Assembly: GCA_913058245.1 (NCBI GenBank)
Contig: CAJXQJ010000002.1
Coordinates: 186,001 to 250,000 of the forward strand
From: an uncultured Colwellia sp.
GTDB taxonomy: Bacteria; Pseudomonadota; Gammaproteobacteria; Enterobacterales; Alteromonadaceae
Direction of reading: 5' to 3'
Length of the DNA stretch: 64,000 nucleotides
Positions 40,704-60,670 of this stretch are shown here, one piece after another. Made by a program: the position numbers and the translations under genes. Under the pieces are notes generated by a model, which saw nothing but the letters and a program-made list of their open reading frames with translations, did not search any database and was not told the DNA's origin. Positions within the stretch are counted from its first letter, which is position 1. Every line of letters starts with the position of its first letter.

Positions 40704-40707
40704 TACC

Positions 40708-45600: not shown

Positions 45601-45792
45601 AGCTAAATTTGCCCGCCTGAACTGCTTTTCAGTAGTAGCTGATTTTTCGCCCACAAGTTTATTTGGCATTAGCTGACATGCTGCTAATGAAAATGCTAAA
45701 CAGTATATGCAGCCAGCTTTAGCTAACTTTACTTTACTAATATTTAGCTTTCTTGCAGTGGCTGACTGCCAGTATTGTGCAAACCTAGCCAT
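42604..45792 (-). CDS. Large TPR lipoprotein (1062 residues)
   Basis: Exported protein with a probable lipobox SLAAC (Cys39) after a basic N-terminus and hydrophobic stretch. The rest is almost all helical TPR-like repeats, for example NLYYQLAKAYDLQGELLKSL, LLFRQAEIYYSQQDYRNSLTAYQQVL and QYSIAENYLKADSLKQAIIHFRTYA. No enzyme motif is seen. It is rich in Gln and Ala. Likely a periplasmic scaffold bridging inner and outer membrane parts, as large TPR proteins do in the Glt machine. The start is joined to the upstream stop as TAATG. Exact repeat count was not determined. Confidence 0.8.
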   Translation of the reverse strand: MARFAQYWQSATARKLNISKVKLAKAGCIYCLAFSLAACQLMPNKLVGEKSATTEKQFRRANLADLAKSLQQANEDKRAELANARALQTKQERSNKLAEIYQSMVLLEPDANVRAQINYRLLELDTEYFQEVGLTELDDKQSKLLLTKLVDDHQALLARYPNRAENENLYYQLAKAYDLQGELLKSLATIEQIIALYPQTQYLAELLFRQAEIYYSQQDYRNSLTAYQQVLTAKDNEKYRLNSLYMSGWSLFKANELALADEKFMAVLAELMQEQQAISASQQRFVSKFQAPNVSENENQHDFDKLTKSKQSLVTDTLRILTISLSQQQQVQSLLALMDRFQLLDKDKQYITALEHVLFQELASFLIEKKLEHDAELTYQAYIERKPNSIWSTRFSLALIAMATKRGTHPEVRTLQQNYVEHYGLKSNFWQQASIDQQQEVIPSLLAFSQQRSRRLYAYAQDVSSPEQQVIAFADAANWLGQYLSVINFTNSEYPQLLAAERIDVIAELSLFADASFQAQNYQQALISYQNLAYGTDNDKLKVTTSETLDKELSEKHDEIKRVAAYASTLTVRKLLSVAPANQQTTLLQKRTKLDKAYIVHYPNDERAKVLASQAAQYSFANADYDSVYFYSDFILKNYGIATASREQIHAKISALDATAFKQVQIASQLKADSFYQQHQYAMAEQSYLLALNFVDKTLGKSKVKEFNELIANSIYQQGLAIKESQPKAAIAHWLRLGKVTPQASFRVNAEFDAANLLLKNKQWQQAISVLLAFQQSFPKHQYSASIPAKLADSYQHLAQYESAAEQLIIMQKSADSSELKRELQYSIAENYLKADSLKQAIIHFRTYAHSYPKPFSLAQEVRYKMSEFYRQTQEPNKRYFWYRKILSAHKTNVSKQELEVQQRSNYLASLSAYELGQAHQQSFSSTKLTLPLNKSLKRKQKSLKQAVSYYQQVFGFGLADFVPKANYQLAKMYQMLAADVMASQLPKDLDELAAEEYNILLEELAYPFEEKAIELFSNNTERAWQGLYDQWIKKSFAALAILEPAKFDKSEKQPEVIYALF

Positions 45793-48044
45793 TAACCTTC
45801 TGCTCCTACGCTCGCATTTTTTGACGGCGCTATATTATCGGTATTATCAACCTTTCGCTGCTCTTCTAAAATTTTAGCCATAGCACGTCGACTATGGTGT
45901 AAATAATAATTTAGGCTCTGGCGTTGCTCTGTAATAAAAGCCAATAACTGCGCTTGAATATTGTTATCTGTTGTTTTATCTAGCTCAGTCGTCGCTTGTA
46001 CTAAGCGATTATGTTGTTGCACAAGCCTGTGCTGCTTTTGCTTCAGCTGAGGTAAGTCTAAGCCCGCATTGCCAAATAAACTCCTTTGGGCTTGGCTGTT
46101 ACTATTTAAAATATCATCAGAGGAATAACCCGTGTTGTGCTTTGCGAGTGCTTGAATATTATTTACTTGCCGCATTTGTTGCTGTAGCTTCACCAGTGAT
46201 TTATCCAGCTGTTGTAACTGTTGCCGATGTCGCCATAACCGCTGTGGAAACTCTTGTTGTAATTGCCACGCTAAAACGCCTTCAACACGCTTTAAGCGTT
46301 GCTGATATTGACTAATTTTTTTTTGATATGACTGATAATTTTCCATCTTATCAATGATTTTTTGGCTTTTCGAAATCCGTTGTAACCACTGAGTTTGTTT
46401 ACCTGAAGCAAACTTCTCACCATCATTATGCTCTACTACTGCCAACAAAATATGGCTAAGTTGATCTCGACGGACCTGCAGTCGTTTAATACTAGCCTGA
46501 TAGTTTTTTGCTTGCTGCTGAGCAATAATGCTCTGTTGTCGTTGTTCATTAATGGTAATAGCATAATTTAGCCATTGCACTTGCTGCTGCTGTTTAGCTA
46601 ATTTTTGTTTAAGTTGACTAAGTTCATTGGCATATTCAATGTGTCCGGTTAACTTAATGCTCTCTTGCGCTTTTTGCCACCAAGTTGAGTCAAGCTCAAC
46701 GGTACCTACCGTAATCTTGCGATTGAACTGTGCAGAGCCTGAAATAACTTGTTGTTCAAACTGTGCCAAACTCGCCAATTGCTGTTGATACTTGGACTCC
46801 AGTTGTAAATAAGATGATAGTGCAGTATCAAGCTCCCTTTGTGCTAAGTATTGACGCGCTAGCAAAATATCAGCTTGCCAACCTAAGTAATTTGCTGGGT
46901 AACGTGCTGAGACTAAGTTAAATATCGCTTCTGATTCTTCATAGTGCTGTGTTTTTAGGCTAGCGTAAGCAAATAAAAATAAAGCTTGTTCAGTAAATGG
47001 ACTATTTTGAGGAAAGTGAGCAAGTTCTTTGTATGCTAATGAAAACTGCTGCTGTTCAATATAAAGCTGTGCCAGTAGTAAACTGGCATAATCTTTCAAA
47101 GACTGTTGTTCATATTCAGAGCTACTTACTGTTACCGCAGTATTTTCACTACTGAATAACTGTTGCCAAAAGCTTTTTTCAGCTGCTTGCCAAGTTATTT
47201 GCTTTAATTTAATTAAATCTTTCTCGGCATTTTCAAAGGCTCTTTGCTCAAGGTGCAACAGGGCCGTATTCAGCAAAATATAGGCTTGTGCTTGTTTATG
47301 CGCGATTGTTTGAGCTACCGTGTTTTTTTTCGCTTGCAGATGCAGTTGTGGAGGTTGCGGCCAAAATGCTAACTGACTCAATACGTGATATTGCTGGTAA
47401 TAGCCTTCGGGTAAATGGCTAAGCTTTGCCAAGGTTTGTTTTGCTTTAGCCTGCTGCTGTTGATTAATTTGTTGCTCAGCCAATTGTAAAAGAGCCACGG
47501 CCAGCAAATCTTTAGAGGCAAAACAATCAATGCGCTTATTGTCACTGCTAGAAAACCACGCTTGTTCAGCTGACGATAATTGCTCCGAGCTAGCTGCTAG
47601 CTTATCAGTTAGTGCCGTTAAGTTTTCTTCAGCTTGGCGATATAACCCTAGCGACACTTGCAATCCTGCTTCAAACAATAAAGCATTATCATCAACAGTT
47701 TTTAATCTCGCCTTGTTGTAAGTCAGTTGCTGTAAAGCTAACTCTTCTTGTCCTTGGAAATAGTAAAATAACGCTTTTCGATACAATTTTTTCGCGAGTT
47801 TTTCTGGCTGTGCGATTGGGAATGGGTATTCGTCATTTTTTCTCGGCAACTCCTTTGACGACTCATTAGCAATAACCACAGGATTTTGTTGTAATTCTTT
47901 ATCTTGCGTTGGTAGCGAATTAGCCAAACAGCTACTGCTAATCAATGCCATAGCCAACAAGCTTTTTAGGTTTTTAAAACTGCATTTAACGTCAACTAAA
48001 CTTGTTATCGCCATGACTTTTTTATATTCCAACATGTGTATCAT
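45792..48044 (-). CDS. Secreted TPR and coiled-coil protein
   Basis: About 750 residues with a signal peptide (LLAMALISSSCLANS). The first 400 residues are TPR-like (KLYRKALFYYFQGQEELALQ, QALFLFAYASLKTQHYEESE). The second half is a long Gln-rich coiled coil (for example QKLAKQQQQVQWLNYAITIN, QQLQQLDKSLVKLQQQMRQ). The frame is open to 48092, overlapping the upstream gene. ATG codons at 48044, 48035 and 48014 are all possible and no ribosome site decides between them; 48044 is given. The stop overlaps the next start as TAATG. Probably a periplasmic scaffold. Confidence 0.75.
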   Translation of the reverse strand: MIHMLEYKKVMAITSLVDVKCSFKNLKSLLAMALISSSCLANSLPTQDKELQQNPVVIANESSKELPRKNDEYPFPIAQPEKLAKKLYRKALFYYFQGQEELALQQLTYNKARLKTVDDNALLFEAGLQVSLGLYRQAEENLTALTDKLAASSEQLSSAEQAWFSSSDNKRIDCFASKDLLAVALLQLAEQQINQQQQAKAKQTLAKLSHLPEGYYQQYHVLSQLAFWPQPPQLHLQAKKNTVAQTIAHKQAQAYILLNTALLHLEQRAFENAEKDLIKLKQITWQAAEKSFWQQLFSSENTAVTVSSSEYEQQSLKDYASLLLAQLYIEQQQFSLAYKELAHFPQNSPFTEQALFLFAYASLKTQHYEESEAIFNLVSARYPANYLGWQADILLARQYLAQRELDTALSSYLQLESKYQQQLASLAQFEQQVISGSAQFNRKITVGTVELDSTWWQKAQESIKLTGHIEYANELSQLKQKLAKQQQQVQWLNYAITINEQRQQSIIAQQQAKNYQASIKRLQVRRDQLSHILLAVVEHNDGEKFASGKQTQWLQRISKSQKIIDKMENYQSYQKKISQYQQRLKRVEGVLAWQLQQEFPQRLWRHRQQLQQLDKSLVKLQQQMRQVNNIQALAKHNTGYSSDDILNSNSQAQRSLFGNAGLDLPQLKQKQHRLVQQHNRLVQATTELDKTTDNNIQAQLLAFITEQRQSLNYYLHHSRRAMAKILEEQRKVDNTDNIAPSKNASVGAEG

Positions 48045-48069
48045 CGATTTAATGCTGTTAGCCCTCGCC

Positions 48070-48630
48070 TTACAGCAACCACTCCTCAACAATCACTTTG
48101 GCTCGGTAGTCTTGAGTTTGATCTTCAATTTTAAGTTCGAGCATAATGGCATCGTCTTCTTTTACAAATTGATACGTTGTTGCCCGTTTAACCGATCTTT
48201 GTTCATTGTCATAGCCAATAAAAATCGCTGTTAGCTGATGTGAACCTTTTTTTAAGTTACCTTGATACAGTCCTTGAATACCCCCTTCTTCCAAAGCTTT
48301 TCGTTGTCTTTCTGTATAAAGAAAGCCGGCAACATCTTGATCATCAATTTTTAGTTCAACACTATCTAAAGTAAAAAATTTACCAATATCAACAGAAACA
48401 AATACCGCAATTTGCGTGCTTGCTGGAAACAATAGATCTTCTTCTAAAATGAATAATTCTCGATTAAGCTGTAATACTTGTTGTTTAATCTCTTCAAGTT
48501 CATTGCTTATTTCACTGTTGGCATTATCAGCTGCCGAGCTTTCTTGCTGAGCATAGCTATCGTCAGCGAAAGAAACAGCTAATAGAAAAAGTACTAAAAC
48601 ACTGTGCATGAGTGAGAATTCTTTATGCAT
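48070..48630 (-). CDS. Secreted coiled-coil/Ig-like protein, unknown function
   Basis: 186 residues with a signal peptide (about residues 1-27, FADDSYAQQ). A short coiled coil follows (NSEISNELEEIKQQVLQLNR). After it comes a beta-rich region: TLDSVELKIDDQDVAGFLYT, GIQGLYQGNLKKGSHQLTAI, VKEDDAIMLELKIED. This last part looks like a small Ig-like domain. No enzyme motif is seen. It lies between the DUF3570 barrel and the TPR genes. I recall similar proteins in Deltaproteobacteria carrying unreliable dihydrolipoamide acetyltransferase names; nothing in the sequence supports such an activity. Confidence 0.68.
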   Translation of the reverse strand: MHKEFSLMHSVLVLFLLAVSFADDSYAQQESSAADNANSEISNELEEIKQQVLQLNRELFILEEDLLFPASTQIAVFVSVDIGKFFTLDSVELKIDDQDVAGFLYTERQRKALEEGGIQGLYQGNLKKGSHQLTAIFIGYDNEQRSVKRATTYQFVKEDDAIMLELKIEDQTQDYRAKVIVEEWLL

Positions 48631-48692
48631 TGTAGCTCCTAAAATATCGCCAAAAACTAACGGATAGCTTGTACTTTAACGTGTATGAAAGA

Positions 48693-49829
48693 CTAAAAAT
48701 AAACACTGAGAAAAGCTCGTACTACATTGGCAGAAAACGCATAGAATGGCTCAGCACCAACTCCACCTTCAGCATTGGGATTACGAAAATCATTGTAAGT
48801 AAAACGTAAATGATCCCACTGTAAACTTACCTCAGATTGCCAATTGTCCGGAGAAAAATTGTTGGGTAGCACATAGGTAACACCTATACCCAAAGTTAAG
48901 TCATTAAAATCACTTAATTCTTTATCTCGTGCTAAATAGTTTTGTGCATCACGGTGCGGGAATAAATCACTGTAAAAGCTAGCTGCGTTTTGTTGGTAAT
49001 AGCGCGCCTTCAGCTCTAACTCGATACTGTCACCAAACGGATGACGATATAAAAGCTCAAAGTCTTGCGAATTAATATCCCAACTGTCAGTAAAATATCT
49101 ATAGTGTGCAAACAATGCTGCTCGATAAGGCAGGTAGTAACTTGATGAAAGCCTCACTGCAAAGGAGTTTCGAGTTTCGGGATAAATCTCAGACTGATAA
49201 CTGACTCCAGCTGGATTGCTAGCATCAACAAATCTCACTGTACGATAAGGATTGTTTAAATATCCTTCATCAGCAACTGCTTCAATATTAATACCTGCCG
49301 TTAAATTGCGCGTTAATATTTGGTTTATGCCAGCACGAATACGGTATTGTTCACTATTTTCTAAAAAATTTTCATCACCGTTGCGCTTAATTTCATTGTC
49401 ACCAACAACAACACCAAAACTTACCGTCGTTAAGTCGCCGAAAGTATCATGAGAAATATTTAACGCCACAGACTTCGCTAAATAATCACTTTCATCACTT
49501 TGCCCGACAGTAACCGCCATTATGGTTTTATCATGTAAATATTCAGCGCCAAGTTGGAACTCTTTACGCTCTTCTGAATAAGGGCTAGCGGTACTCATTA
49601 CATCAACCGATGCAGAAGAAATAGTATCAACATAGTAATACGCTGATACTGCTATGGATTCACTGGCTTTTTTACGCACTAATACCGATGGGCCATCAAT
49701 TGACATACCGCCACCTTGATAGCTGTGATACAGCACATCTGCTTGATCTTTTTCCAACACCGCCGCAGATAGGTTCAAAGAAAACAAAGATATAAAAATA
49801 AGGATAAAGCATTTATTAATTACAGCCAC
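48693..49829 (-). CDS. DUF3570 outer-membrane beta-barrel protein
   Basis: 378 residues from GTG 49829, with signal peptide AVINKCFILIFISLFSLNLSA. The mature protein has alternating aromatic strands, such as SESIAVSAYYYVDTISSASVDVMS and YLPYRAALFAHYRYFTDSWDI, and ends in an aromatic residue (VVRAFLSVYF), the usual signal for barrel insertion. The frame is open to 49958, but GTG 49829 lies five bases after a perfect GGAGG that is part of the Gly/Cys tail codons of the DUF4266 gene, so the two genes are tightly coupled. DUF3570 and DUF4266 genes are usual neighbours; the function is unknown. Confidence 0.82.
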   Translation of the reverse strand: MAVINKCFILIFISLFSLNLSAAVLEKDQADVLYHSYQGGGMSIDGPSVLVRKKASESIAVSAYYYVDTISSASVDVMSTASPYSEERKEFQLGAEYLHDKTIMAVTVGQSDESDYLAKSVALNISHDTFGDLTTVSFGVVVGDNEIKRNGDENFLENSEQYRIRAGINQILTRNLTAGINIEAVADEGYLNNPYRTVRFVDASNPAGVSYQSEIYPETRNSFAVRLSSSYYLPYRAALFAHYRYFTDSWDINSQDFELLYRHPFGDSIELELKARYYQQNAASFYSDLFPHRDAQNYLARDKELSDFNDLTLGIGVTYVLPNNFSPDNWQSEVSLQWDHLRFTYNDFRNPNAEGGVGAEPFYAFSANVVRAFLSVYF

Positions 49830-50121
49830 AGCCACCTCCGCCAGTACCCTCTGCACCTCGGCCTGATTCACGTGCTTCATAAACATGTGCCACATGCCGA
49901 TTGGCAATACCATGGCGATTTGCCGACATAATTGGGTCAGCCAAATTTTGTCGCTCATATGGCTTAACCCAAGGCTTCACACCCATTTGCGCGCAACCAC
50001 TAAGCATTAAGCAGCCAAACCCAAAAGCACAGTAAAAAATAGCTTTCGATATTTTACTTAAGCAATTAATTAGCAAGTTATTTAGTGAGGAAGCTTTTAA
50101 GTGCTCAGATATTGTCATCAT
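49816..50121 (-). CDS. DUF4266 lipoprotein with Gly/Cys C-terminal tail
   Basis: 101 residues; lipobox LMLSGC puts the lipid on Cys43, leaving a mature peptide of only 59 residues. The core VKPWVKPYERQNLADPIM and HVAHVYEARESGRGAEG is the DUF4266 signature. It ends GTGGGGCGCN, with two Cys set in a Gly run. It starts at the TlpA stop (TAATG) and its last codons hold the ribosome site of the DUF3570 gene. The tail could bind metal or be modified; no modification enzyme other than the nearby TlpA and ApbE was recognised. Confidence 0.82.
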   Translation of the reverse strand: MMTISEHLKASSLNNLLINCLSKISKAIFYCAFGFGCLMLSGCAQMGVKPWVKPYERQNLADPIMSANRHGIANRHVAHVYEARESGRGAEGTGGGGCGCN

Positions 50122-50657
50122 TATTCTCTGATCAACTGTTTAATCACTTTCGCGTATTTCTTTTCGTAACCTTTTTGATAACCACGAAAAACAGAGCGCA
50201 CTTTACCATTACGATCGATAATAACGGTGGTAGGCATGGCCTCAACATTGTATGCGGCAGATATAGTATTACTGGCATCAAAGAAAATTGGAAAATCAAC
50301 GCCAAGCTCCTGAATATAATCAAGCCCAGCTTGATTTTGTTGCTCAACATTCACTCCCCACACAGCGACACCTAAGTCTTGATATTGGTTGTGAAACTCT
50401 TGCAATATTGGCATTTCTGTTCGACAAGGGCCGCACCATGACGCCCAAAAATTAATAACAATAATATTACCGCGTTGCTCAGCAAGGTTAAGATTCTCAC
50501 CCGTCATACTTTTTAAAGTAAAGTCGGGCGCACTTTCACCCAAACTTAATGCTAGGCTTGTACCGCTGAAAAAAGCTGCTATTGAAAATATTGCAGCAAG
50601 AAAAACATTCTTGTGGCCAATGTGCCTATATGTTGCTCGTTTAACCTTGAATATCAT
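50121..50657 (-). CDS. TlpA-family periplasmic thiol-disulfide oxidoreductase
   Basis: 178 residues with a signal or anchor sequence (NVFLAAIFSIAAFFSGTSLA). Thioredoxin-like fold with active site WASWCGPCRTEMP. The family start ESAPDFTLKSMTGENLNLA and the cis-Pro region VEAMPTTVIIDRNGKV are present. Such proteins reduce Cys residues of apocytochromes or other exported proteins. The clients here may be the CxxCH proteins of this locus or the Cys tail of the DUF4266 lipoprotein that starts at its stop codon. The client is inferred. Confidence 0.9.
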   Translation of the reverse strand: MIFKVKRATYRHIGHKNVFLAAIFSIAAFFSGTSLALSLGESAPDFTLKSMTGENLNLAEQRGNIIVINFWASWCGPCRTEMPILQEFHNQYQDLGVAVWGVNVEQQNQAGLDYIQELGVDFPIFFDASNTISAAYNVEAMPTTVIIDRNGKVRSVFRGYQKGYEKKYAKVIKQLIRE

Positions 50658-50705
50658 GCGATTACCCTATTGTTTTGCATCAATACTTAATATCGAAAAA
50701 GTGGC

Positions 50706-51347
50706 TTAAAAGTAAAATGAAACACCCGTAGTAAAACTTAAATTGTGTGTGGTTTTTGCTTCGCCGGTAACACGGGTGTCGAAAATATGATCACTAATAC
50801 CAATATCCCAAGCAATCCAATCATTAGCAAACACACGAAAATTAGTGGCAAAATTAACGGTGAATTGATCATCTCCAGCAAACTCTGTACTACCGGCACC
50901 AAGCTCCACTGAGAAAACGCTATTAAAGGCCCAGTTATCACTAAGAAAGATTTCACCAGGAAACAAGTTATAGCCTATATTTAAGCCGTAATAACTTAAC
51001 TCACGCTCATCATCTGTTAATAGTGGCGATGTATTCGATAATTTTTCAAAGCTAGTTTGTCCGGCATCTGCTTGGGCATATTCAGCTTTAAAATAAAAAT
51101 CTTCACTGATGTGATAGCCAATATGTCCTGACACTAAGGTACTGGTTTCAAAATCTTCTATGCTGATTAAGCCAACTTTTACACCTACTTCAAAGTTTTC
51201 ACTGTCGAGTAAGTCTTCTAAAACTTCACGTCGTTCAACACTAGGCCTAATGTCAGACTCAGCTGCAAAAGCAGCATGTGCAGGAGCTAGCAACAGAAAA
51301 GTCAGAATAAATAACCGCATACTCGGCCATTGCTTTTGTTGAGTCAT
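50706..51347 (-). CDS. Small outer-membrane beta-barrel protein
   Basis: 213 residues from ATG 51347, which overlaps the stop of the previous gene (TAATG); the frame runs back to 51377 but that start is unlikely. Signal peptide (RLFILTFLLLAPAHAAFA). The mature protein opens with VERREVLEDLLDSENFEVGV and then has amphipathic strands such as LISIEDFETSTLVSGHIGYH and ELSYYGLNIGYNLFPGE, ending LSFTTGVSFYF with a terminal Phe. It resembles the outer-membrane barrel family shared by myxobacteria and some Gammaproteobacteria (GltA/GltB type), judged by eye. Confidence 0.75.
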   Translation of the reverse strand: MTQQKQWPSMRLFILTFLLLAPAHAAFAAESDIRPSVERREVLEDLLDSENFEVGVKVGLISIEDFETSTLVSGHIGYHISEDFYFKAEYAQADAGQTSFEKLSNTSPLLTDDERELSYYGLNIGYNLFPGEIFLSDNWAFNSVFSVELGAGSTEFAGDDQFTVNFATNFRVFANDWIAWDIGISDHIFDTRVTGEAKTTHNLSFTTGVSFYF

Positions 51348-52126
51348 TATAGAAATACGCTGAAACCTAGTGTCCATGTTCGAACCCCTTCATTATCATC
51401 TCGATCAGTTAACACTAATGAGTATTTATATTCAGCCCGTAATAAAAAATTACGAGCCAGGTAATATTTAAGCCCGATGGCGCCGCTGATCAGGGTATTG
51501 TTTCTATCTTGAGCATCAGCCAGAACACTATGCGGTGTCGTTCTAATAGCACCTGCTCCAACACCAAAATAAGGAATAACACTAAGCTCAGGGAAAGGTT
51601 GTGCTAGTAGCATTAACTCAGCAATTTCATTATCAGAAACACTACCTATCGCTTTACCCACTTGCAGCTCTGTACTTATGACCGAGCTAAAAGCATAAGA
51701 TAAACTTAAGCGATAGAAGTCAGCTTGCTCAAACTCACCATAACCAACACCGATTTCCCATACTCTCGATAAGTAATCTTCTTGCCTGTTTTGCTCAGAA
51801 ATAACCGGCTGTTGTTTAAAGCTAAAACTTAGTAATTTGTCTTGATGGAACCAACCTTGATTACCACGCTTATCTTGCACTTTGAACCAAGCAGTACGTT
51901 TCACTAGTACCCAAACACTTTCACCTTTTTCGACAACTTGCGTGATTGGGTAGCCGCGCCCAGGCCCTGAGCGTAGTTCAATATAGGGTACTTCAATTTC
52001 TATGCTCGGACTTAAGGGGATATCTTGCTCATTGTTGCTTATTTGCGCATTAGCAAAACCGCTAAGACAAATCAGCACTACTGCCAGTTGTTTGAAACCC
52101 CGTAGGTTGCGACTAATGAACCTCAT
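51347..52126 (-). CDS. SH3b-domain outer-membrane beta-barrel protein
   Basis: 259 residues from ATG 52126, which overlaps the stop of the upstream diheme gene (TAATG). The signal peptide is followed by an SH3b domain (YIELRSGPGRGYPITQVVEK to GWFHQDKLL, about residues 40-95), likely binding peptidoglycan or a partner. The C-terminal half has barrel strands (VWEIGVGYGEFEQADFYRLS, YFGVGAGAIRTTPHSVL, FLLRAEYKYSLVLTDRD) ending in TWTLGFSVFL. It pairs with the next gene, which has the same kind of barrel without SH3b. The domain split is clear; the role is inferred. Confidence 0.78.
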   Translation of the reverse strand: MRFISRNLRGFKQLAVVLICLSGFANAQISNNEQDIPLSPSIEIEVPYIELRSGPGRGYPITQVVEKGESVWVLVKRTAWFKVQDKRGNQGWFHQDKLLSFSFKQQPVISEQNRQEDYLSRVWEIGVGYGEFEQADFYRLSLSYAFSSVISTELQVGKAIGSVSDNEIAELMLLAQPFPELSVIPYFGVGAGAIRTTPHSVLADAQDRNNTLISGAIGLKYYLARNFLLRAEYKYSLVLTDRDDNEGVRTWTLGFSVFL

Positions 52127-54816
52127 TAGGGTGACACCTGATAAAAAGGTGTATTGTAATATTGAGCGCCAATATCTAACCACTCTCTAAGCAGTCGTTG
52201 CTCATCAAGTGTTAAGCTATTTATATGGCTGTCATTATTCATTACCTGAAAAAAGCGACTACTTGCTTGCGCACTATTGGTTGACAGAATATTTGCAACA
52301 TCAACAGTAGTCATAACAGGGATCGGTTGGCCATTTTCATCTAGTACTAAATTGCCTTCAGCATCTCGTACATAAACAGGATCACCATTAGCATCTAATA
52401 ATGGAATTTGCCTATCCACTAAAATTCCGCCAATTAATTCTTGTTCGAAATCAGAAAAAAATAACTCTCTATAGCTAGTTAAATGTGCAGGTTCATCCGT
52501 TGAAGCATTTGCAGTTAAATCAAGCTGTCCCGCGGGTACCTGTGCTATATTATCGGCGTCTAAACTGCTGTGGCAGCTAGTACAGGTATTATCTTGAATT
52601 TGCTCGTTGGTCAGTTCATCGAAAACCAAACGAGACTTAGACCATAATGGCTGTATATGCTCAGAGTAATTAATTTGAATTCGACAATATGCAGTCCAAT
52701 TTGTAAAACATTCACTACCGTTTGGCTTTGTTGTGGTAATAGTTTGATAACTTAGGTTAAGCGCAGGGTTTAGACTAGAAGTTGCAGGATCACTCCAAAT
52801 ATCCTGATACACAAGATCAGTAGCTAGCGTTGGTAATCCCAGAATCTTTTCAACCGTTTCAGCCATGGTATATGAAAATTCCGGCAACATCTGTGGATTA
52901 GTACCAGGAAATACTGCATCGGTGGCTTCAGCTCCTAAGTTGATACTCGCCGCTTGCGCAGTAATTCGACCATGAGGCAATTCACTGTCACCGGTATGAC
53001 AGCCGTGACATTCTATTGTTTCGCCGGGCTTTACTGATAACCACTGGCGGTGTCTGCCACCAATGCGCTGACCATTTTGATCAAGGATACTTAACGCAAA
53101 AGGGATATTTGCGGGTACTTTAACCTTAACCGAGCCATCAGGTTGAATTGCGCTATAGCCAAGGATTTCACGCATTAATTGGCCACGACTACGACCAAAA
53201 TCAGTGTTATCTAAATCTTTTACCTCTTCTGGCGGCATAGGCACACCACGTACTAACCGAATAAACCGCGCTGGTCTTTGTACAGCCGAAGTTTGTGTTG
53301 GGTTCATGGTTTGCGCTAAACCTTGTGGACTTAAATCAGTACCATCTAAATCATAAACACTACGAATATGAATCGCCCCAGTTTGTTCATTGGCTAAGTC
53401 TATATCAAGCTCAGCACCAATCACTTTATCAGCAATAAACTCCGGCTTTTGCTCCGCCGTTTGCATAACAATAGCTTCTGTTAGAATGTTGCCTTGTGTT
53501 GTTGTCGCAACCAGTTGCTGCGTGTTGTCAGCTTGGTTAAACAACCATAGTTCATAAAGATCTGTCGCTTGTTCAATATTTTCTTGTGCTAGCTGCTCAC
53601 TCGTTAATTGGCCACAAGCACGAGTCTCTTGTTCGATAATCACTCGACATAAATCCCAAGTCACTAAATAGCGCTGGCTGCTATCAGGAAGCGCAAACAA
53701 GTGACTTATTCTTCCTGCCAAAGATATGTCAGATGAAAAATTGTAGTTAGTAACACTAGGATCAAATAGAGCAGATACCGCGTTATCTGTAACAGGGTTA
53801 TTAGCAGCTATTGGTTGGAACTGATCAGTAAAATCATTGAGGTTAATGAGAATCGGACGTTTCTGGAATTGTGTTTCTTCATCACCATTTAGCAAAAGTA
53901 AAATACGACCATCAGGTAGTTGTTGTGGTTTTACAAATTCTATATTGGCATTGCCATCATCAATCACCAATTGATGTGAATGCCAGCCATACATTAGCTG
54001 ATTTTCAGTACCATCAGGACGCATACGGTATAAATTTATTTGATTATTACTGCCCATGGCATCCCAACGACTGTACAAAATATGGCCATCTTGTAAAACC
54101 AAAGGATAAAAGTCATGGCTTAAATTAAAGCTCAGTTGTTCAATATTAGCGCCATCAGCTTGCATAATATGAATATTAAATGTAGCAATATCGGAACGTT
54201 CATTTAGCGCTGTATATTGTGGCTTTCCTTCATCGAGCAAAATCGCACGAGCGGTTTGCTGACGATTCGAAGCAAAAATAATTCGCCCATCTGGTAAGAA
54301 CGATGCCATTAAGTCATCACCTTGTTCGGCAATAACATCGTTACTAATAATTCGCGTTAATTGTTTAGTAGTTTGTTGATAATGCCAGATATTCCACTTA
54401 GGCTGCTGATTTTCATCCACTGAGTCAATTTCGGGGGCACGTATCGACACTAAAAATTCTTGACCGTCAGCAGATACCGACAAGTCACGAATATCAATGG
54501 CTTGTTCAGCATTTTCGTCGCCATCATTAGTAAAAAGGTTAGCCGTTAAGTCAACAGCTATGGCTTCAGGCGTAGCATTAGCTTTTACAATTAGCTTGGC
54601 ACCAGGGTTAAATCGTGTTGGTTCAATAAGCGAGAAACGCAACGGCTGATTAACTTCTTCCGAAGAGTCGGTATCTAAGCTGCGCTCGATATAGACAACA
54701 GGATACTCCTCTAGCACAGGATCGGTATTTTCTTCGCTGGGCGAACTGTCTGAATTGCAACCTGCCATTAGGAAGACAACAAAAGCAAGTCCGCTAAAAC
54801 TTTTCTTCGGATTCAT
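52126..54816 (-). CDS. Diheme PD40-propeller lipoprotein resembling hydrazine synthase alpha
   Basis: 896 residues with lipobox FLMAGC (Cys20). The N-terminal part is a beta-propeller of PD40 type (LPDGRIIFASNRQQTARAIL, HILYSRWDAMGSNNQINLYR, LPDGRILLLLNGDEE). The C-terminal part has two heme-binding motifs, CHGCH at residues 603-607 and CTSCH at 745-749. Propeller plus cytochrome regions resemble the HzsA-related family named after the alpha subunit of anammox hydrazine synthase; hydrazine synthesis is not implied. It begins the long minus-strand operon. It faces the divergent monoheme gene across a 400-base control region. Confidence 0.78.
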   Translation of the reverse strand: MNPKKSFSGLAFVVFLMAGCNSDSSPSEENTDPVLEEYPVVYIERSLDTDSSEEVNQPLRFSLIEPTRFNPGAKLIVKANATPEAIAVDLTANLFTNDGDENAEQAIDIRDLSVSADGQEFLVSIRAPEIDSVDENQQPKWNIWHYQQTTKQLTRIISNDVIAEQGDDLMASFLPDGRIIFASNRQQTARAILLDEGKPQYTALNERSDIATFNIHIMQADGANIEQLSFNLSHDFYPLVLQDGHILYSRWDAMGSNNQINLYRMRPDGTENQLMYGWHSHQLVIDDGNANIEFVKPQQLPDGRILLLLNGDEETQFQKRPILINLNDFTDQFQPIAANNPVTDNAVSALFDPSVTNYNFSSDISLAGRISHLFALPDSSQRYLVTWDLCRVIIEQETRACGQLTSEQLAQENIEQATDLYELWLFNQADNTQQLVATTTQGNILTEAIVMQTAEQKPEFIADKVIGAELDIDLANEQTGAIHIRSVYDLDGTDLSPQGLAQTMNPTQTSAVQRPARFIRLVRGVPMPPEEVKDLDNTDFGRSRGQLMREILGYSAIQPDGSVKVKVPANIPFALSILDQNGQRIGGRHRQWLSVKPGETIECHGCHTGDSELPHGRITAQAASINLGAEATDAVFPGTNPQMLPEFSYTMAETVEKILGLPTLATDLVYQDIWSDPATSSLNPALNLSYQTITTTKPNGSECFTNWTAYCRIQINYSEHIQPLWSKSRLVFDELTNEQIQDNTCTSCHSSLDADNIAQVPAGQLDLTANASTDEPAHLTSYRELFFSDFEQELIGGILVDRQIPLLDANGDPVYVRDAEGNLVLDENGQPIPVMTTVDVANILSTNSAQASSRFFQVMNNDSHINSLTLDEQRLLREWLDIGAQYYNTPFYQVSP

Positions 54817-54979
54817 GCTACTTTCCCGATTAATTTCTCGCCAATAACAATAATTTTAATTAACTCAGTAAATATGTAATTACGAGACATAGCCGCTAAA
54901 AAATGTGATTTAAAGCACTTTTTAAAGCAAGTAAGTCAATTAAAACAACAAGCTAACCCTGTACAAAATTCAAACAAAT

Positions 54980-54993
54980 AGTGGTTAACCACT
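54980..54993. promoter_or_regulatory. 14-base perfect palindrome, candidate operator
   Basis: AGTGGTTAACCACT is fully self-complementary and sits near the middle of the divergent region, about 165 bases from the minus-strand start and 225 from the plus-strand start. No regulator gene is adjacent. Confidence 0.4.
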
Positions 54994-55205
54994 GTCAGTA
55001 TTTTTTACATAATTACATTTCGGATACAAAGTACTACATCCTTAGTACTAAATACAACATTTATTTTTTATTAAATAAAACGGTATATTTTTATAAAAAA
55101 ATAACGTATACCTAAAAAAGAGCATCTTTATTTGTATAAAAAACATACAAAAAAAAGGAAGCGACACGTTAATATTTTCGAATATTTTTTTTACTCAACA
55201 TCTTC

Positions 55206-55212
55206 AAGGAGG
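55206..55212 (+). promoter_or_regulatory. Strong ribosome binding site fixing the start at 55217
   Basis: A full AAGGAGG lies four bases before ATG 55217. It supports the first ATG although an ATG nearer the signal peptide exists downstream, and so supports an unusually long N-terminal region. Confidence 0.75.
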
Positions 55213-55216
55213 CTGT

Positions 55217-56521
55217 ATGAAGGTGTTACTTTGTAACGTCAAAGCAACGATCGCCAAGCAAGAGAAAACAAGTTTCAGGGGCCGATTGTCTAACTCGCAC
55301 TCAGACAAAATAATGCTATTGTTATCAATTGTTTATTTTGTATTTTTATTCACTTTATTATTCACTTCACAAACCGCTTTTGCTGGCACATTAGAGCAAG
55401 CAAAACGACTTCATGATCGCCTTACTGGTGTACCAGCGAGTTCTGAAACTTTAACCAGAATGGAAACATTATTAAATGATGGAAAAAATATCGAAGCGGC
55501 TTACGTCGCGATGGAGTCAAAACACTTTTACAACACTACGTTAAAACTATTTTCAACACCTTGGTCCAATAAAGAGCAAGATATATTTGCTCCACTTAAT
55601 GATTACAGCGCGACTGTCATCGGCATGGTTCGAGATGATGTTGATTTTCGGCAAATCTTACAAGCAGATGTGACATATGTCGGTAAAAGTGACTTAGGCT
55701 TACCTGAATACAGTAATAACAATAATAGCCACTATCTTGCAATTGAAGAACGAGCAATAGATTTATCAAGCGATTTAGTACAAGTTCCGCAGTCCAGCCT
55801 TAATGGTCTACCGACATCTGCAACCGCCGGTGTATTAACCAGTCGAGCAGCCGCTAAAGCATTTTTTTACTTAGGTACCAATCGCGCCATGCTCAGGTTT
55901 ACCTTAATGAATCACTTGTGTACTGATCTTGAGCCAATAAAAGATAACACTTTATCACCTGATAGAATTCGTCAAGACGTTAGTCGCAGCCCGGGTGGTG
56001 ATAGCCGATTATTTTTAAACAATTGTTTGGCCTGTCACAGTGGCATGGATCCACTTGCTCAAGCCTTCGCCTATTATGACTACGATTTTAACATTGATAC
56101 TGATCCTGCTGCTGAAGTAGGCAATATTGCTTACAACCAAGATGGCACAACCGATGTTACTACTGGTACACGGGTGCAAGCCAAATACTTTAATAACAAC
56201 ACCACCTTTCCATTCGGCTTTGAAACCCCTAACGATCAATGGATCAATTATTGGCGGCATGGAAACAACCGTCGCTTAGGGTGGGATCCAGCCCTTAGTG
56301 GTCAAGGCAGTGGTATGAAATCATTAGGAGAAGAGTTAGCCAATAGCCAGGCCTTTGCTCAATGTCAGGTTAAAAAAGTCTTTAAAAACGTTTGTTTACG
56401 AGAAGCTGAAAGTAGCGCCGATATAACGCAAATCGCAACAACGACTAACTCATTTCAAGAAAATGGCTACCAATTAAAACAAGTTTTTGCTGAAGTCGGC
56501 AATTACTGTATGGGAGAATAA
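55217..56521 (+). CDS. Secreted monoheme c-type protein, DUF1588/DUF1585-like
   Basis: 434 residues. A long polar N-region of about 32 residues precedes the hydrophobic signal (IMLLLSIVYFVFLFTLLF, cut near AFAG); the AAGGAGG at 55206 supports this start. One CxxCH at residues 270-274 in NNCLACHSGMDPLAQAFAYY. The pattern CxxCHxxxDPLxxAxxxYD matches the C-terminal domains of planctomycete-type PSD1 cytochromes (DUF1588/DUF1585), here without their usual N-terminal cytochrome part. RLHDRLTGVPASSETL near the N-terminus resembles the DUF1592/DUF1549 region. First of three genes, with two bases before the next. Confidence 0.72.
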   Translation: MKVLLCNVKATIAKQEKTSFRGRLSNSHSDKIMLLLSIVYFVFLFTLLFTSQTAFAGTLEQAKRLHDRLTGVPASSETLTRMETLLNDGKNIEAAYVAMESKHFYNTTLKLFSTPWSNKEQDIFAPLNDYSATVIGMVRDDVDFRQILQADVTYVGKSDLGLPEYSNNNNSHYLAIEERAIDLSSDLVQVPQSSLNGLPTSATAGVLTSRAAAKAFFYLGTNRAMLRFTLMNHLCTDLEPIKDNTLSPDRIRQDVSRSPGGDSRLFLNNCLACHSGMDPLAQAFAYYDYDFNIDTDPAAEVGNIAYNQDGTTDVTTGTRVQAKYFNNNTTFPFGFETPNDQWINYWRHGNNRRLGWDPALSGQGSGMKSLGEELANSQAFAQCQVKKVFKNVCLREAESSADITQIATTTNSFQENGYQLKQVFAEVGNYCMGE

Positions 56522-56523
56522 TT

Positions 56524-58956
56524 ATGATTAAACTGAAATTATTTTCTTGTTTATTGATACTAAACTTTCTCGCTGCCTGTGGTGACAGTGAAGTAGAAAC
56601 AAATCCGCCAGTACAAGTCGATACACCGAACAACACCTATTCAGGGCCTGCACCACAAACTGAAGATATTCAAAAATATAAAACAGCGTTATTTGACAAT
56701 ATTGCCACCAGCGATCGTTGTGGTGCTTGTCATAAAGTGGACGAGCAAGCACCTTACTTTGCTCGTTTTGACGATGTTAACTTAGCCTACGCAGCAACAA
56801 CGTCACTCGTTGAATTAACAACACCAGCACAATCTCGCTTAGTAACTAAAGTCGCAAGTGGCCACAACTGTTGGTTAGACAGTGCCCAAGCCTGTGCCGA
56901 TACTATGACCCAATGGATCAAGCTTTGGTCTGATGATCGCGTCAGTACAGCTACAACGATTGAATTAACAGCACCGGTTATTCGAGAGCCGGGTACGAGT
57001 AAAAACTTTCCTGAAAGTAATGCACTGTTTAGCAGCCACGTCTACCCAATTGTCAGCCAATATTGTTCATCGTGTCATAGTGAAACTTCGAGTACCGCGC
57101 AGTCACCATTTTTCGCCAGCGATGACATCGATATTGCCTACCAAGCTGCACAAGGTGTCATTAACCTAGACCAAGAAGAGTTATCACGACTAGTGGTGCG
57201 TTTGGGCAGTGAATTTCACAACTGTTGGGGAGACTGTCAAGCCAATAGCAATACCATGCTCGCTGGCATTCAAGCCTTTAGTGAACAAATACCAGTCAAC
57301 CAAGTTGATGACGCTATGGTGATCTCCAAAGCCTTGAAATTAACCGATGGTATCGTCGCCTCAAATGGAGGCCGGTTTGAAAGCGATATTATTGCACTTT
57401 ATCAATTTAAAACCGGAGACGGCAATATTGCCTACGACACCTCAGGTATCAGTCCCGCAGCAAACTTAACGCTAACAGGCGATACTGAATGGCTAGGCAG
57501 TGGCGGCTTAATTTTTAATAATGGCAAAGCACAAGCCAGTACCGCTAGCAGTAAGAAGCTGCATGACTTAATTACCGCTACCGGCGAATTTACCGTAGAA
57601 GCTTGGTTGACTCCAGCGAATGTAATTCAAGAAGGTCCAGCTCGCATTGTTAGTTACTCTGCTGGCGATAATGAGCGAAACTTTACCTTAGGGCAAAGCC
57701 AATATAATTATGATTTTATGTTGCGTAACCAAGCAACCTCCCTCAATGGCGAACCTGCCTTAAGTACACCTGATGCCGATGAGATTTTACAAGCAACGCT
57801 ACAGCATGTGGTACTAACTTATAACGCCACTGAAGGTAGAAAACTTTATGTAAACGGTAAGCTTATTGAGGCTGTTGATGAAGAAGTTGCCCCGCTTGCC
57901 TCTTGGGATAGCAGCTTTGCCCTTATTCTTGGTAGAGAAGCGTCAAACAATCATGTTTGGCAAGGTAATATCCGTTTGCTTGCGATATTTAACCAAGCAA
58001 TGACCGCTGAGCAAATACAACAGAATTTTGACGTTGGCGTTGGCGAACGCTATTACTTACTGTTTTCAATTGGCGATTTAATTGATTTACCTAACACCTA
58101 TGTCATGCTTGAAATCAGTGAGTTTGACAATTATAGCTACTTATTTAGCCAACCATCATTAGTCAATCTAGACCAACAAAAGTTGCCAACAGCTATCGCC
58201 ATTGAAGGACTTAATATTGGCATCAATGGTAAAGAAAGCAGCCAAAGTCAGGTGTATGCCAACCTTGCCCGTACCATAACGACTGTAGACACAATCGAAG
58301 CGCCATTATTATTATCAGAGTTAGGTACAATTATTGCGATTGAAAAAGGCGCTGAGCAAGATGAGTTTTTCTTATCATTCGAGCGTTTAGGTGAGCACAC
58401 AAATATCAAAGTTGAAGGTGAATTAGTGGTAAGTGAAGAGTTACCTGCTGACACTGACAGTGCAGATATCGGCATACGAAATTTCAATGAAATTAACGCC
58501 AGTATGAGCCAACTAACCGGAGTCTCACAGGCGCAAAGTAAAGTACTGAATGTTTACCAGCTAGTGCAACGGCAACTGCCCAGTATCACAAATATTGAAA
58601 CCTTTATCTCTGCCCAGCAAATGGCAATTACGCAACTGGCCATTGCCTACTGCGATAGCGCAATTGAAGACAATACAATCCGTGACAATTGGTTTCCTAA
58701 TATCGATTTTACACAGGCACCAAGTTTAGCACTGTCGGCAAATCAACGTGTACACTTTATCGATCCCTTACTCGCACAATTAATGCCACTAGACATTGCT
58801 AGTCAACCAGCAAAAACAGCCGTTAGTAATGAACTAAACAATTTAATTGACCGTTTAGCTATTTGTGACAGCAACTGTAATGCCGAACGCACTCGTACTA
58901 TTACAAAATCAAGTTGTGCTGCCGTGCTAGCCAGCGCTGTCACTTTGCTGCAATAA
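56524..58956 (+). CDS. Diheme LamG-domain lipoprotein
   Basis: 810 residues with lipobox FLAAC (Cys19). Two related cytochrome domains in tandem: CGACH at 66-70 and CSSCH at 181-185. Each is followed by an aromatic/AY-rich helix, an SRLV segment and HNCW, then a Cys and a TM that could give a distal Met ligand. Residues of about 280-500 form a LamG/concanavalin-like domain (GEFTVEAWLTPANVIQEG, LYVNGKLIEAVDEE, LILGREASNNHVWQGNIR). The rest is of unknown fold. Likely a cell-surface or periplasmic electron-transfer protein binding a polymer or partner; the function is inferred. Confidence 0.75.
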   Translation: MIKLKLFSCLLILNFLAACGDSEVETNPPVQVDTPNNTYSGPAPQTEDIQKYKTALFDNIATSDRCGACHKVDEQAPYFARFDDVNLAYAATTSLVELTTPAQSRLVTKVASGHNCWLDSAQACADTMTQWIKLWSDDRVSTATTIELTAPVIREPGTSKNFPESNALFSSHVYPIVSQYCSSCHSETSSTAQSPFFASDDIDIAYQAAQGVINLDQEELSRLVVRLGSEFHNCWGDCQANSNTMLAGIQAFSEQIPVNQVDDAMVISKALKLTDGIVASNGGRFESDIIALYQFKTGDGNIAYDTSGISPAANLTLTGDTEWLGSGGLIFNNGKAQASTASSKKLHDLITATGEFTVEAWLTPANVIQEGPARIVSYSAGDNERNFTLGQSQYNYDFMLRNQATSLNGEPALSTPDADEILQATLQHVVLTYNATEGRKLYVNGKLIEAVDEEVAPLASWDSSFALILGREASNNHVWQGNIRLLAIFNQAMTAEQIQQNFDVGVGERYYLLFSIGDLIDLPNTYVMLEISEFDNYSYLFSQPSLVNLDQQKLPTAIAIEGLNIGINGKESSQSQVYANLARTITTVDTIEAPLLLSELGTIIAIEKGAEQDEFFLSFERLGEHTNIKVEGELVVSEELPADTDSADIGIRNFNEINASMSQLTGVSQAQSKVLNVYQLVQRQLPSITNIETFISAQQMAITQLAIAYCDSAIEDNTIRDNWFPNIDFTQAPSLALSANQRVHFIDPLLAQLMPLDIASQPAKTAVSNELNNLIDRLAICDSNCNAERTRTITKSSCAAVLASAVTLLQ

Positions 58957-58971
58957 GCCTAGGAATATATT

Positions 58972-60570
58972 ATGAAAAAAGCTAAACATTTCCACCCTGA
59001 CGCGGCATTACTATTTGCCGATCATAGTCGACCAGTTAGCCGACGCGACTTTATTTCTTCAGGCTTACGTAAGGGTGCTGGCGTTGTTGCGGGTGCTTCA
59101 TTATTCAGTATGTTTGCTAATCCTAATAAAGCGCATGCAACATTATCGCCTGATCTTGAAGCGCTACGAGCGTCATGTGGTATTAATGTCCAAGGAGCCG
59201 GCAAAATTCCTTTTATCTCATTTGACTTAGCCGGTGGTGCCAATATTGCTGGCTCGAATGTCTTAGTAGGCGGGGCTGGTGGTCAATTAGATTTCTTATC
59301 TACAGGTGGCTATAACAAACTGGGCTTACCAGGTGACATGGCACCTTCTATCGCCAACCCTACTGTCGGACAATCTGATTTTATTAATACCGAGTTGGGT
59401 CTAGCCTTTCATTCTGATTCCGCATTTTTGCGCGGTATTTTAGAGAAAACCTCTGCAGATACGCGCAGCCGAATTAATGGTGCGGTTATACCCAGCCGAT
59501 CTGATAACGACACTAGCAATAATCCACATAACCCAATGTATGCCATTGCTGCGGCAGGCGCCGATGGCTCACTTATGCCCTTATCAGGTTCTAGAAATAC
59601 AGAGTCTGGCGGCAATTCCATGGCCCCTAATCGCTTTATTGATTTAAGTAAACGACCGACAAAAATTGATCGGCCAACTGATGTCACAGGCCTTGTCGAT
59701 GTCGGAGACCTATTCAGTTTACTATCGCAAAGTGACGCTGTAGCCGTAATGGAAAGCATTCAACGCGTTAGTTCACAAAAATTAGCAAGCGTAAATACTC
59801 AAGTTACTCGTGATGATGTAATAAAAGATCTCGTCAACTGTGGCTATGTAAAAAGCGCCGATTTAGCCGACCGTTTTGGCGACCCAAGTACACTTAATCC
59901 ATTACTCGATCCTGATATTGTTGGCCCGGCAGGTATATTCACACTAGCGGAATTTGATGGTGAAAGTGAATTTAGTAAAACCTCATCTATCATGAAGCTT
60001 GTGGTGAATGGTTTTTCCGGCGCAGGCACTGTCACTATGGGCGGCTTTGATTACCACACTGGCGAACGTGCAACGGGCGAACTTAGAGATTTACGTGCTG
60101 GCCGTTGCATGGGTGCCTGCCTTGAATATGCCGCAAGGCGCAACAAACCATTAATGATGTATGTTTTCAGTGATGGTTCTGTTGCCAGTAATGGCCGCAT
60201 CGACGACTCAGTAGAAGGTCGAGGCAAAGGTGAATGGACTGGAGATAACTCATCAACCGGAGCATCATTCTTTTTAGTCTATAACCCAAATGGACGCCCC
60301 CAACTTAATGGTGGTAATGACAGCCAAATGGCAGCACATCAACAAATTGGCTTTATGCGACCTGACGCTTCTGTAGATACTAGCTCAGCGCCATCAGCCA
60401 ACAATGTTAATTTGCTGGTTGAAACCGTATTACTAAACTACTTAGCATTACATGGCGAACAAGGTAGTTTTAACGGTTTGGTACCTGGACAAGGACTCGG
60501 CAACAATACCTTACTCGACAGTTTAACGGCATTTCAGCCAATTATAACCAACACCATTAATCAGGTTTAA
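58972..60570 (+). CDS. Tat-exported DUF1501-like protein
   Basis: 532 residues with a twin-arginine signal (SRRDFISSGLRKGAGVVAGA, cut near KAHA), so it is exported folded. The body resembles DUF1501: PFISFDLAGGANIAGSNVLV near the start, GGFDYHTGERATGELRDL and LMMYVFSDGSVASNGRIDD later, which match the GFDTH and SEFGR-type regions of sulfatase-like DUF1501 proteins. Metal-binding residues are plausible but not proven. DUF1501 genes usually pair with PSD1 cytochromes, as here. AGGA lies ahead of the ATG. Ends with a strong terminator. Confidence 0.75.
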   Translation: MKKAKHFHPDAALLFADHSRPVSRRDFISSGLRKGAGVVAGASLFSMFANPNKAHATLSPDLEALRASCGINVQGAGKIPFISFDLAGGANIAGSNVLVGGAGGQLDFLSTGGYNKLGLPGDMAPSIANPTVGQSDFINTELGLAFHSDSAFLRGILEKTSADTRSRINGAVIPSRSDNDTSNNPHNPMYAIAAAGADGSLMPLSGSRNTESGGNSMAPNRFIDLSKRPTKIDRPTDVTGLVDVGDLFSLLSQSDAVAVMESIQRVSSQKLASVNTQVTRDDVIKDLVNCGYVKSADLADRFGDPSTLNPLLDPDIVGPAGIFTLAEFDGESEFSKTSSIMKLVVNGFSGAGTVTMGGFDYHTGERATGELRDLRAGRCMGACLEYAARRNKPLMMYVFSDGSVASNGRIDDSVEGRGKGEWTGDNSSTGASFFLVYNPNGRPQLNGGNDSQMAAHQQIGFMRPDASVDTSSAPSANNVNLLVETVLLNYLALHGEQGSFNGLVPGQGLGNNTLLDSLTAFQPIITNTINQV

Positions 60571-60605
60571 TAAAACTGCCTAGGTAGTAAATCTAGCCTG
60601 ATAAT

Positions 60606-60632
60606 AAAAAAGCACCTGTTAGGTGCTTTTTT
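60606..60632. terminator. Terminator after the DUF1501-like gene
   Basis: Perfect 12-base stem AAAAAAGCACCT (60606-60617) / AGGTGCTTTTTT (60621-60632) with a GTT loop; T runs on both strands, so it can also end apbE from the other side. Confidence 0.88.
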
Positions 60633-60670
60633 ATTATCTTCAATTTGCGACCTAAAATTGGAGAGTAAGA

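Follow-up and report, generated by a model that had tools for sequence, protein, structure and literature searches.

In a 64,000-nucleotide stretch of DNA from an uncultured Colwellia sp. (contig CAJXQJ010000002.1, positions 186,001 to 250,000; hereafter the window), genes of a motor resembling the Agl/Glt core complex share one locus with a flavinylation unit (DUF3570, DUF4266, TlpA and ApbE) and with genes for three heme proteins and a Tat-type (twin-arginine) exported protein. The Agl/Glt core complex and the flavinylation unit have each been published; what is new is their linkage, and in the open-licence literature searched we found no paper connecting the motor with the redox module. Both published systems were missed by the initial annotation, which had described a motor fused in one locus with a heme/DUF1501 module. 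Because cofactor motifs are conserved and the genes are jointly inherited, we propose that motor and redox genes form one joint trans-envelope machine, in which the proton-driven motor would act on an outer-membrane flavin/heme complex (probability about 0.55).

The locus consists of a minus-strand run of 15 genes (from position 54816 to 38602), with the gene for a lipoprotein resembling the alpha subunit of hydrazine synthase (HZS-alpha-like) as the first and agmX as the last gene (Table 1). Intergenic gaps within the run do not exceed 94 bp, and many of the genes overlap. Divergent to the run lies a trio on the plus strand, coding for a PSD2-like protein with one heme, a LamG lipoprotein with two and the Tat-type protein, here called DUF1501L; a convergent apbE follows them. 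Gene calls and family scans agreed with the genes, strands and motifs as first described. The range initially assigned to the locus (45792-60570) omitted the genes for AgmX, both ExbD proteins and ExbB (38602-41397) as well as apbE (60671-61681).

The MotA/TolQ/ExbB-type protein and the two ExbD/TolR-type proteins of the Agl/Glt core all scored above the Pfam cut-offs. The agmX product matched the NCBIfam model of the AgmX/PglI C-terminal domain above its cut-off and the GltG equivalog model far below it. TPR proteins occupy the places of GltD and GltE; the GltE model matched at E 9.3e-5, which is below its cut-off, and no GltD model matched. The text on the Agl/Glt core complex in Luciano et al. 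(2011, PMC3169522) places it in many Gammaproteobacteria, calls its function there unknown and regards it as the origin of the gliding and Nfs sporulation machines. In the corresponding text of Wartel et al. (2013, PMC3858216), Agl-Nfs moves the coat polymer around the spore, and the core system is called a possible basal transport machinery. Two loci in other genomes (L128 in G056 and L133 in G194:C2) carry genes for GltD/GltE-like TPR proteins and small proteins with no ExbB/ExbD match in the stretch examined; by eye, these TPR genes adjoin genes resembling parts of type VI secretion systems, possibly a second use of the TPR proteins.

All four members of the flavinylation unit, DUF3570, DUF4266, the thioredoxin-like protein and ApbE, likewise scored above the Pfam cut-offs, with apbE located 10.7 kb from DUF3570, beyond the PSD2/LamG/Tat trio. 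Two genes near tlpA turned out to encode DUF4266, a small CxC protein and not a barrel, and DUF3570. The window's DUF3570 protein carries the predicted flavinylation sites SSAS and STAS. The A-S of both sites is kept in 20/20 sequences that reach them, the divergent L127 aside, and the first residue of the second site varies between S, T and A. The DUF4266 C-terminus GGGCGCN is present in 19/19 homologues. As far as the sections of Meheust et al. (2021, PMC8238504) on these proteins go, ApbE flavinylates DUF3570 at two sites, and clusters of DUF3570, DUF4266, thioredoxin and ApbE, 316 of them without an adjacent DsbD, are described with a function called uncertain.

Three genes within 6.8 kb together carry five CxxCH motifs (two in the HZS-alpha-like protein, one in the PSD2-like protein and two in the LamG protein), in agreement with the initial count of at least five in about 6 kb; no other CxxCH occurs in the window's 57 open reading frames of at least 100 aa (20,492 residues). 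Both motifs are kept in 19/19 HZS-alpha-like homologues of the same order (two of the sequences being partial), the single motif in 17/17 PSD2-like homologues and both motifs in 17/18 LamG homologues, the exception being a 142-aa fragment at a contig end. This conservation rules out a chance origin of the motifs. In the alignments, the lipobox cysteines C20 of the HZS-alpha-like protein and C19 of the LamG lipoprotein are invariant, and 17 of the 18 DUF1501L homologues start with a twin-arginine (RR) N terminus, the remaining one being an N-truncated fragment. With a mean column identity of 71% (17 sequences), DUF1501L was the most conserved of five proteins compared, followed by the PSD2-like (60%), LamG (58%), HZS-alpha-like (49%) and GltD-like (33%) proteins.

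Joint inheritance was assessed by profile matches in samples of 197 genomes of the order and 274 genomes of the class, with the gene for the GltD-like TPR lipoprotein as marker for the motor. Within the order, 20 genomes encode the HZS-alpha-like protein, and the 19 genomes with DUF1501L are all among these 20 (the remaining one is G017). The GltD-like protein (28 genomes) and DUF4266 (48 genomes) were both present in 20/20 of the HZS-alpha-like genomes. For the class, only strong GltD-like matches were counted as motor, so that G209, G265, G295, G330 and G404 (40-46 bits) were left out and the motor set went from 68 to 63 genomes; DUF4266 occurred in 66, DUF1501L in 35 and the HZS-alpha-like protein in 39. 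The last was accompanied by the motor in 38 of 39 genomes (p 1.5e-28), within 30 kb in 28 of those 38, and DUF1501L in 33 of 35; motor and DUF4266 occurred together in 49 genomes (p 6.5e-27), in 28 of them within 30 kb. The associations persisted with one genome per family (156 genomes; family codes of unlisted genomes were assumed to follow those shown): the motor was found in 35 and the HZS-alpha-like protein in 21 genomes, with both in 20 (p 7e-15), and 27 of the 35 DUF4266 genomes had the motor (p 2.4e-16). These counts bear out the earlier claim that motor and heme/Tat genes belong together.

The genes are also kept together in a defined arrangement. In 17 of the 19 other genomes of the order with the module, nine genes (DUF3570-DUF4266-TlpA-barrel-SH3 barrel-HZS-alpha-like plus PSD2-like-LamG-DUF1501L) retain order and orientation; among these 17, DUF1501L is split into two frames in one and cut by a contig end in another. 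The two exceptions are G058, where the locus is broken over contigs, and G017, where it is partial with one barrel placed differently. A pattern scan of genome contigs returned at least 546 confirmed relatives of the Tat protein, the best 80 of which were examined. These come from Shewanella, Colwellia, Thalassotalea, Ferrimonas, Alteromonas, Paraglaciecola, Rheinheimera, Arsukibacterium, Catenovulum, Microbulbifer, Sedimenticola, Chromatiaceae and others; 56 of the 80 have the window's nine-gene order, 50 of them without deviation and 6 with additional or split matches, and the other 24 show different orders, single missed genes or cuts at contig ends. The HZS-alpha-like gene was found in 15/15 named genomes checked.

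Where the arrangement differs, motor and redox genes still adjoin in several ways. In 15 Rheinheimera/Arsukibacterium loci, the PSD2-like gene directly follows agmX on the same strand with gaps of -28 to 22 bp, and in Rheinheimera sp. UJ63, the one of these loci examined over its full length, a single co-directional run of 18 genes begins with the HZS-alpha-like gene and ends with DUF1501L. Sedimenticola, Microbulbifer, G324 and G458 have the motor after the Tat gene, in some of them with apbE in between. In G352, G322 and G240, a single run that lacks the trio unites apbE and the HZS-alpha-like gene with the DUF3570 unit and the motor. In G023 and G213, the motor adjoins SH3 barrel, barrel, TlpA and DUF3570, and heme genes are absent; in the latter (locus L356, G213:C12), these four genes are divergent to the motor run, and no DUF4266 was detected in the genome.

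Several points weigh against a joint machine, the evidence for which is genomic throughout. Counts inside families are non-independent, and families within the class are also not fully independent. The motor occurs without the HZS-alpha-like protein and DUF1501L in 23 of 63 genomes of the class (11 with the motor only, 12 with motor and DUF4266), and DUF4266 occurs without the motor in 17 of 66. In G014, G059 and G173, motor and module are more than 1 Mb apart, with apbE as the next gene after agmX. This position of apbE speaks for a joint machine: it directly follows agmX in 7/8 module genomes whose motor lies outside the run of DUF3570, compared with 0/15 among motors that are second motors or belong to genomes lacking the module, 14 of them with room for it (p 3e-5, a value that overstates the weight because the seven cases come from four families). 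The small number of families behind the apbE linkage counts against it. This comparison leaves out L126, L128, L133 and L139, which are cut before agmX or have no motor; in L132, only 482 bp follow agmX, and G029 has a partial apbE after agmX and a second match near the trio. Finally, the single-contig genome G230 has an intact trio and neither motor nor DUF4266. Of its HZS-alpha-like gene, only two N-terminal pieces remain, which lack CxxCH (L343, G230:C1:1990000-2009999). The HZS-alpha-like gene seems to decay without the motor, and the trio seems able to outlast both.

The initial annotation had named an observation that would speak against the linkage, namely that in most genomes the two halves occur independently. 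This was not seen from the side of the redox genes, which almost always come with the motor; from the side of the motor the association holds only in part, since the 23 of 63 genomes mentioned above have the motor and neither the HZS-alpha-like nor the Tat protein. The redox genes depend on the motor more than the motor depends on them, and since the motor also occurs without heme genes, it appears to be a chassis and the redox genes its cargo. The patchy occurrence of the module (20 of 197 genomes of the order), together with the existence of the motor alone and of the flavin unit alone, would also fit two unrelated systems that share an island or a regulator. We consider such mere neighbourhood very improbable, as the linkage persists in different gene orders and in the one-per-family association, and as apbE stays attached to the motor where the remainder is distant. 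In addition, no plasmid record matched the HZS-alpha-like protein at E 1e-20, by which a plasmid origin of the locus was rejected. In a quick motor tree, which covers 74 of 82 motor places and in which the window's own branch is long, module linkage requires 12 changes compared with a mean of 23.1 after shuffling, and at least 5 changes are forced by well-supported branches. Hence, the linkage is neither random nor of single origin, and linked motors do not form one dedicated clade.

Alternatively, the motor might do no more than assemble the redox proteins or place them on the surface, by export or sorting, and stay outside their working cycle. According to Wartel et al. (PMC3858216), Agl-Nfs moves surface cargo. 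Three of the redox proteins look like lipoproteins, with invariant lipobox cysteines where aligned, and the motor is the wider-spread part. On the other hand, lipoproteins and barrels normally reach the outer membrane via Lol and Bam, and the 17 of 66 DUF4266 genomes lacking a motor indicate that the flavin unit is not always in need of one. We therefore regard this explanation as rather unlikely.

As to the heme proteins, the predicted structure of the HZS-alpha-like protein (mean predicted local distance difference test, pLDDT, 76.6) matched hydrazine synthase alpha over the full length (Foldseek E 2.2e-23); against 5c2v_A, it gave a Z of 29.4 and a root-mean-square deviation of 4.3 over 584 residues with 18% identity. 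For the monoheme protein, the initial label PSD1 did not hold. PSD1 (DUF1553) was listed for 0/18 members of its family, while 17/18 matched PSD2/DUF1585 (best E 7.4e-6); the window's own protein matched PSD2/DUF1585 at E 0.0028, below the Pfam cut-off, and the match of the family to PSCyt3 is weak.

The label DUF1501 was not borne out by sequence either, with 0/17 DUF1501L family members matching Pfam DUF1501 at E up to 1. An hhalign comparison with 12 DUF1501 proteins gave E 0.0012 at a probability of only 19%, placing GGFDYH on the GxDTH motif, and a comparison limited to one DUF1501 sequence was uninformative. Plain DUF1501 identity was set aside on the negative Pfam result, and the match to the 12 sequences is weak but consistent with the motif; by its sequence, the protein may at best be remotely DUF1501-like. 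PF07586 (DUF1552/HXXSHH) matched 0/46 genomes, but also no control, and is uninformative here. No solved structure was related to DUF1501L by sequence at E up to 1. Its predicted structure is poor (mean pLDDT 53.4), and Foldseek found no match for it at E 0.001; all 50 fold matches listed for this low-confidence model are sulfatases, nucleotide pyrophosphatases/autotaxins, phosphoethanolamine transferases or a phosphonate hydrolase (Z about 10), which we take to form the alkaline phosphatase superfamily. Separate from the locus, the window's genome encodes an ordinary DUF1501 protein above the Pfam cut-off (G000:C3:74719-75912), whose gene has an upstream partner in the usual tandem.

How might one machine be composed of these parts? 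ExbB and the two ExbD proteins would use the proton gradient, and AgmX/GltG together with the TPR proteins GltD/GltE would transmit force across the periplasm in the manner of the Agl/Glt/Nfs family. This force may act on an outer-membrane complex that DUF3570 forms with both barrel proteins, the SH3 barrel and the second one. ApbE would attach flavin mononucleotide (FMN) to both [ST]xAS sites of DUF3570. Electron exchange might connect this FMN-DUF3570 complex with TlpA and the CxC end of DUF4266 on one side and, on the other, with the five hemes carried by the HZS-alpha-like, PSD2-like and LamG proteins. The Tat protein could work with the heme proteins on a substrate outside. In this picture, the redox set would be the cargo of a motor of general use, which adds a third output of the motor family to gliding and spore-coat building. 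First guesses at the substrate would be a surface polymer or matrix, or iron or a mineral, each of which is at best an unlikely pick. That the locus represents a new functional class, with an Agl/Exb-type motor mechanically coupled to outer-membrane flavin/heme electron transfer and force and electron flow joined, is a tentative idea.

Two further explanations were considered. In the first, the flavin/heme set would pass electrons outward to ferric iron or an insoluble acceptor, while the Exb-type motor drives uptake or contact. Meheust et al. (PMC8238504) connect 25 of the DUF3570 clusters with VIT1 iron transporters, and flavinylation with iron assimilation. Yet the genes of the unit include no recognised TonB-dependent receptor or iron transporter, and the sequences predict only five hemes and no multiheme nanowire protein, so iron or mineral reduction appears unlikely. 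In the second, the motor would carry a secreted glycan around the cell in an Nfs-like deposition of matrix or coat, and the flavin, heme and Tat proteins would cross-link or trim this glycan. Wrapping of the spore coat polymer by Agl-Nfs, as described in the sporulation text of PMC3858216, the LamG domain as a possible sugar binder and the sulfatases and phosphoethanolamine transferases among the closest folds of the Tat protein agree with such a role. The fold match, however, is that of a model with a mean pLDDT of 53, and the unit has no recognised gene for a glycosyltransferase or for polymer export; we find this scenario similarly doubtful.

A joint machine of motor and redox proteins would have consequences beyond this locus. 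Two published systems of open purpose, the Agl/Glt core complex and the DUF3570/DUF4266/ApbE unit, are partners in many families of one class, and the partnership includes an HZS-alpha-like heme protein and a Tat protein outside any Pfam family. The linkage reaches far beyond the window's genome to many, mostly marine, bacteria. This provides a testable context for both systems: motor mutants are expected to show redox phenotypes, and flavin mutants motor phenotypes. To a motor family whose known roles are gliding and spore-coat building, it likely adds a redox-related one. If true, mechanical coupling would be what the Agl/Glt core complex of Gammaproteobacteria does in genomes with the redox set.

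The features of the locus are compiled in Table 1. The true start of DUF3570 probably lies downstream of the one listed. Counts of promoter-like sites were below expectation in two regions (40 versus 48.9 and 6 versus 13.8 expected) and are uninformative. At 29874-38491, the window contains genes that by eye read as RlmH, PBP2, RodA, RlpA, DacA, LipB and LipA; this cell-wall/lipoate block is convergent to the motor run, ends 110 bp from its last gene and is probably unrelated.

Table 1 Features of the motor/redox locus, with positions in the window
Feature	Position	Strand	Evidence
Terminator-like stem, 16 pairs, downstream of agmX	38519-38553	-	Sequence scan, predicted
AgmX/PglI C-terminal (GltG/TonB-like) force transducer, last in run	38602-39591	-	NCBIfam myxo_SS_tail, 49.5 bits (cut-off 40)
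ExbD/TolR-type protein 2	39595-40149	-	Pfam ExbD, E 1.2e-13
ExbD/TolR-type protein 1	40152-40793	-	Pfam ExbD, E 9.1e-11
ExbB/TolQ/AglR-type proton channel	40708-41397	-	Pfam MotA_ExbB, E 6.5e-28
Small exported protein at GltC place	41492-41812	-	Position alone; matches no family
TPR lipoprotein, GltE-like, 267 aa	41814-42617	-	TPR above cut-off; weak GltE match
GltD-like TPR lipoprotein, 1062 aa	42604-45792	-	TPR matches; alignment
TPR/coiled-coil exported protein, 766 aa	45792-48092	-	Open reading frame, weak TPR match
Exported protein opening the motor part, 186 aa	48070-48630	-	Same place kept in other loci; no confident family
DUF3570, predicted ApbE substrate, two [ST]xAS sites	48693-49958	-	Pfam DUF3570, E 8.4e-44
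DUF4266 small lipoprotein-like protein, C-terminal CxC	49816-50121	-	Pfam DUF4266, E 1.7e-19
TlpA-type periplasmic thioredoxin, CGPC	50121-50657	-	AhpC-TSA/Redoxin match
Outer-membrane beta-barrel, NCBIfam TIGR04565 (OMP_myx_plus)	50706-51377	-	161.5 bits (cut-off 60)
SH3 domain and outer-membrane beta-barrel	51347-52183	-	Pfam SH3_4, SH3_3, OMP_b-brl above cut-offs
HZS-alpha-like diheme lipoprotein; TolB-type propeller, HZS_alpha middle domain, C-terminal second heme	52126-54816	-	Pfam HZS_alpha, E 1.3e-15
AT-rich divergent intergenic region, 400 bp	54817-55216	.	Sequence
Monoheme PSD2/PSCyt3-like exported protein, 434 aa	55217-56521	+	PSD2 in 17/18 family members
Diheme LamG lipoprotein	56524-58956	+	Pfam Laminin_G_3, E 5.5e-22
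Tat-type protein DUF1501L, remote alkaline-phosphatase-superfamily fold	58972-60570	+	N-terminal RR; fold; no Pfam match
Terminator-like stem, 18 pairs, between DUF1501L and apbE	60600-60638	+	Sequence scan, predicted
ApbE flavin transferase	60671-61681	-	Pfam ApbE, E 5.9e-79

In Planctomycetes and Verrucomicrobia, pairs of the PSD/DUF1501 type place a PSD-type heme protein beside an alkaline-phosphatase-like Tat protein. The trio of the window resembles these pairs in combining a PSD-type heme gene with a Tat protein of putative, and here remote, alkaline-phosphatase-like fold. It differs from them in that the heme protein is PSD2-like only and short (434 aa), that a diheme LamG lipoprotein lies in between and that the Tat protein is missed by Pfam DUF1501. 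The HZS-alpha-like protein, in turn, shares with hydrazine synthase alpha the modeled full-length fold of propeller, middle domain and two heme-c sites. According to the structural text of Hagglund et al. (2025, PMC12758564), Tyr591 of hydrazine synthase alpha is a heme iron ligand, located four residues after the CxxCH histidine. At this place the window protein, unlike hydrazine synthase alpha, has Ser611, which is nearly invariant in 18 sequences, and it is a lipoprotein. Hydrazine synthase identity was therefore rejected, also because no genes for beta or gamma subunits were among the proteins scanned at 38.6-62.9 kb. The main text of PMC12758564 names non-anammox homologues in Planctomycetota and Desulfobacterota and has no mention of Gammaproteobacteria, Shewanella or Colwellia.

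With the clusters of Meheust et al., as their sections in PMC8238504 describe them, the locus shares the four protein types, the [ST]xAS sites, the CxC end of DUF4266 and the lack of an adjacent DsbD; those clusters are described without a motor, an HZS-alpha-like protein or a Tat partner. The likeness to the Agl/Glt core complex, as given in the core-complex text of PMC3169522 and PMC3858216, comprises ExbB, two ExbD-type proteins, a TonB/GltG-like protein and GltD/GltE-like TPR proteins in one run. That text names no redox genes, whereas the run of the window extends beyond the motor into barrels, TlpA, DUF4266, DUF3570 and the HZS-alpha-like lipoprotein.

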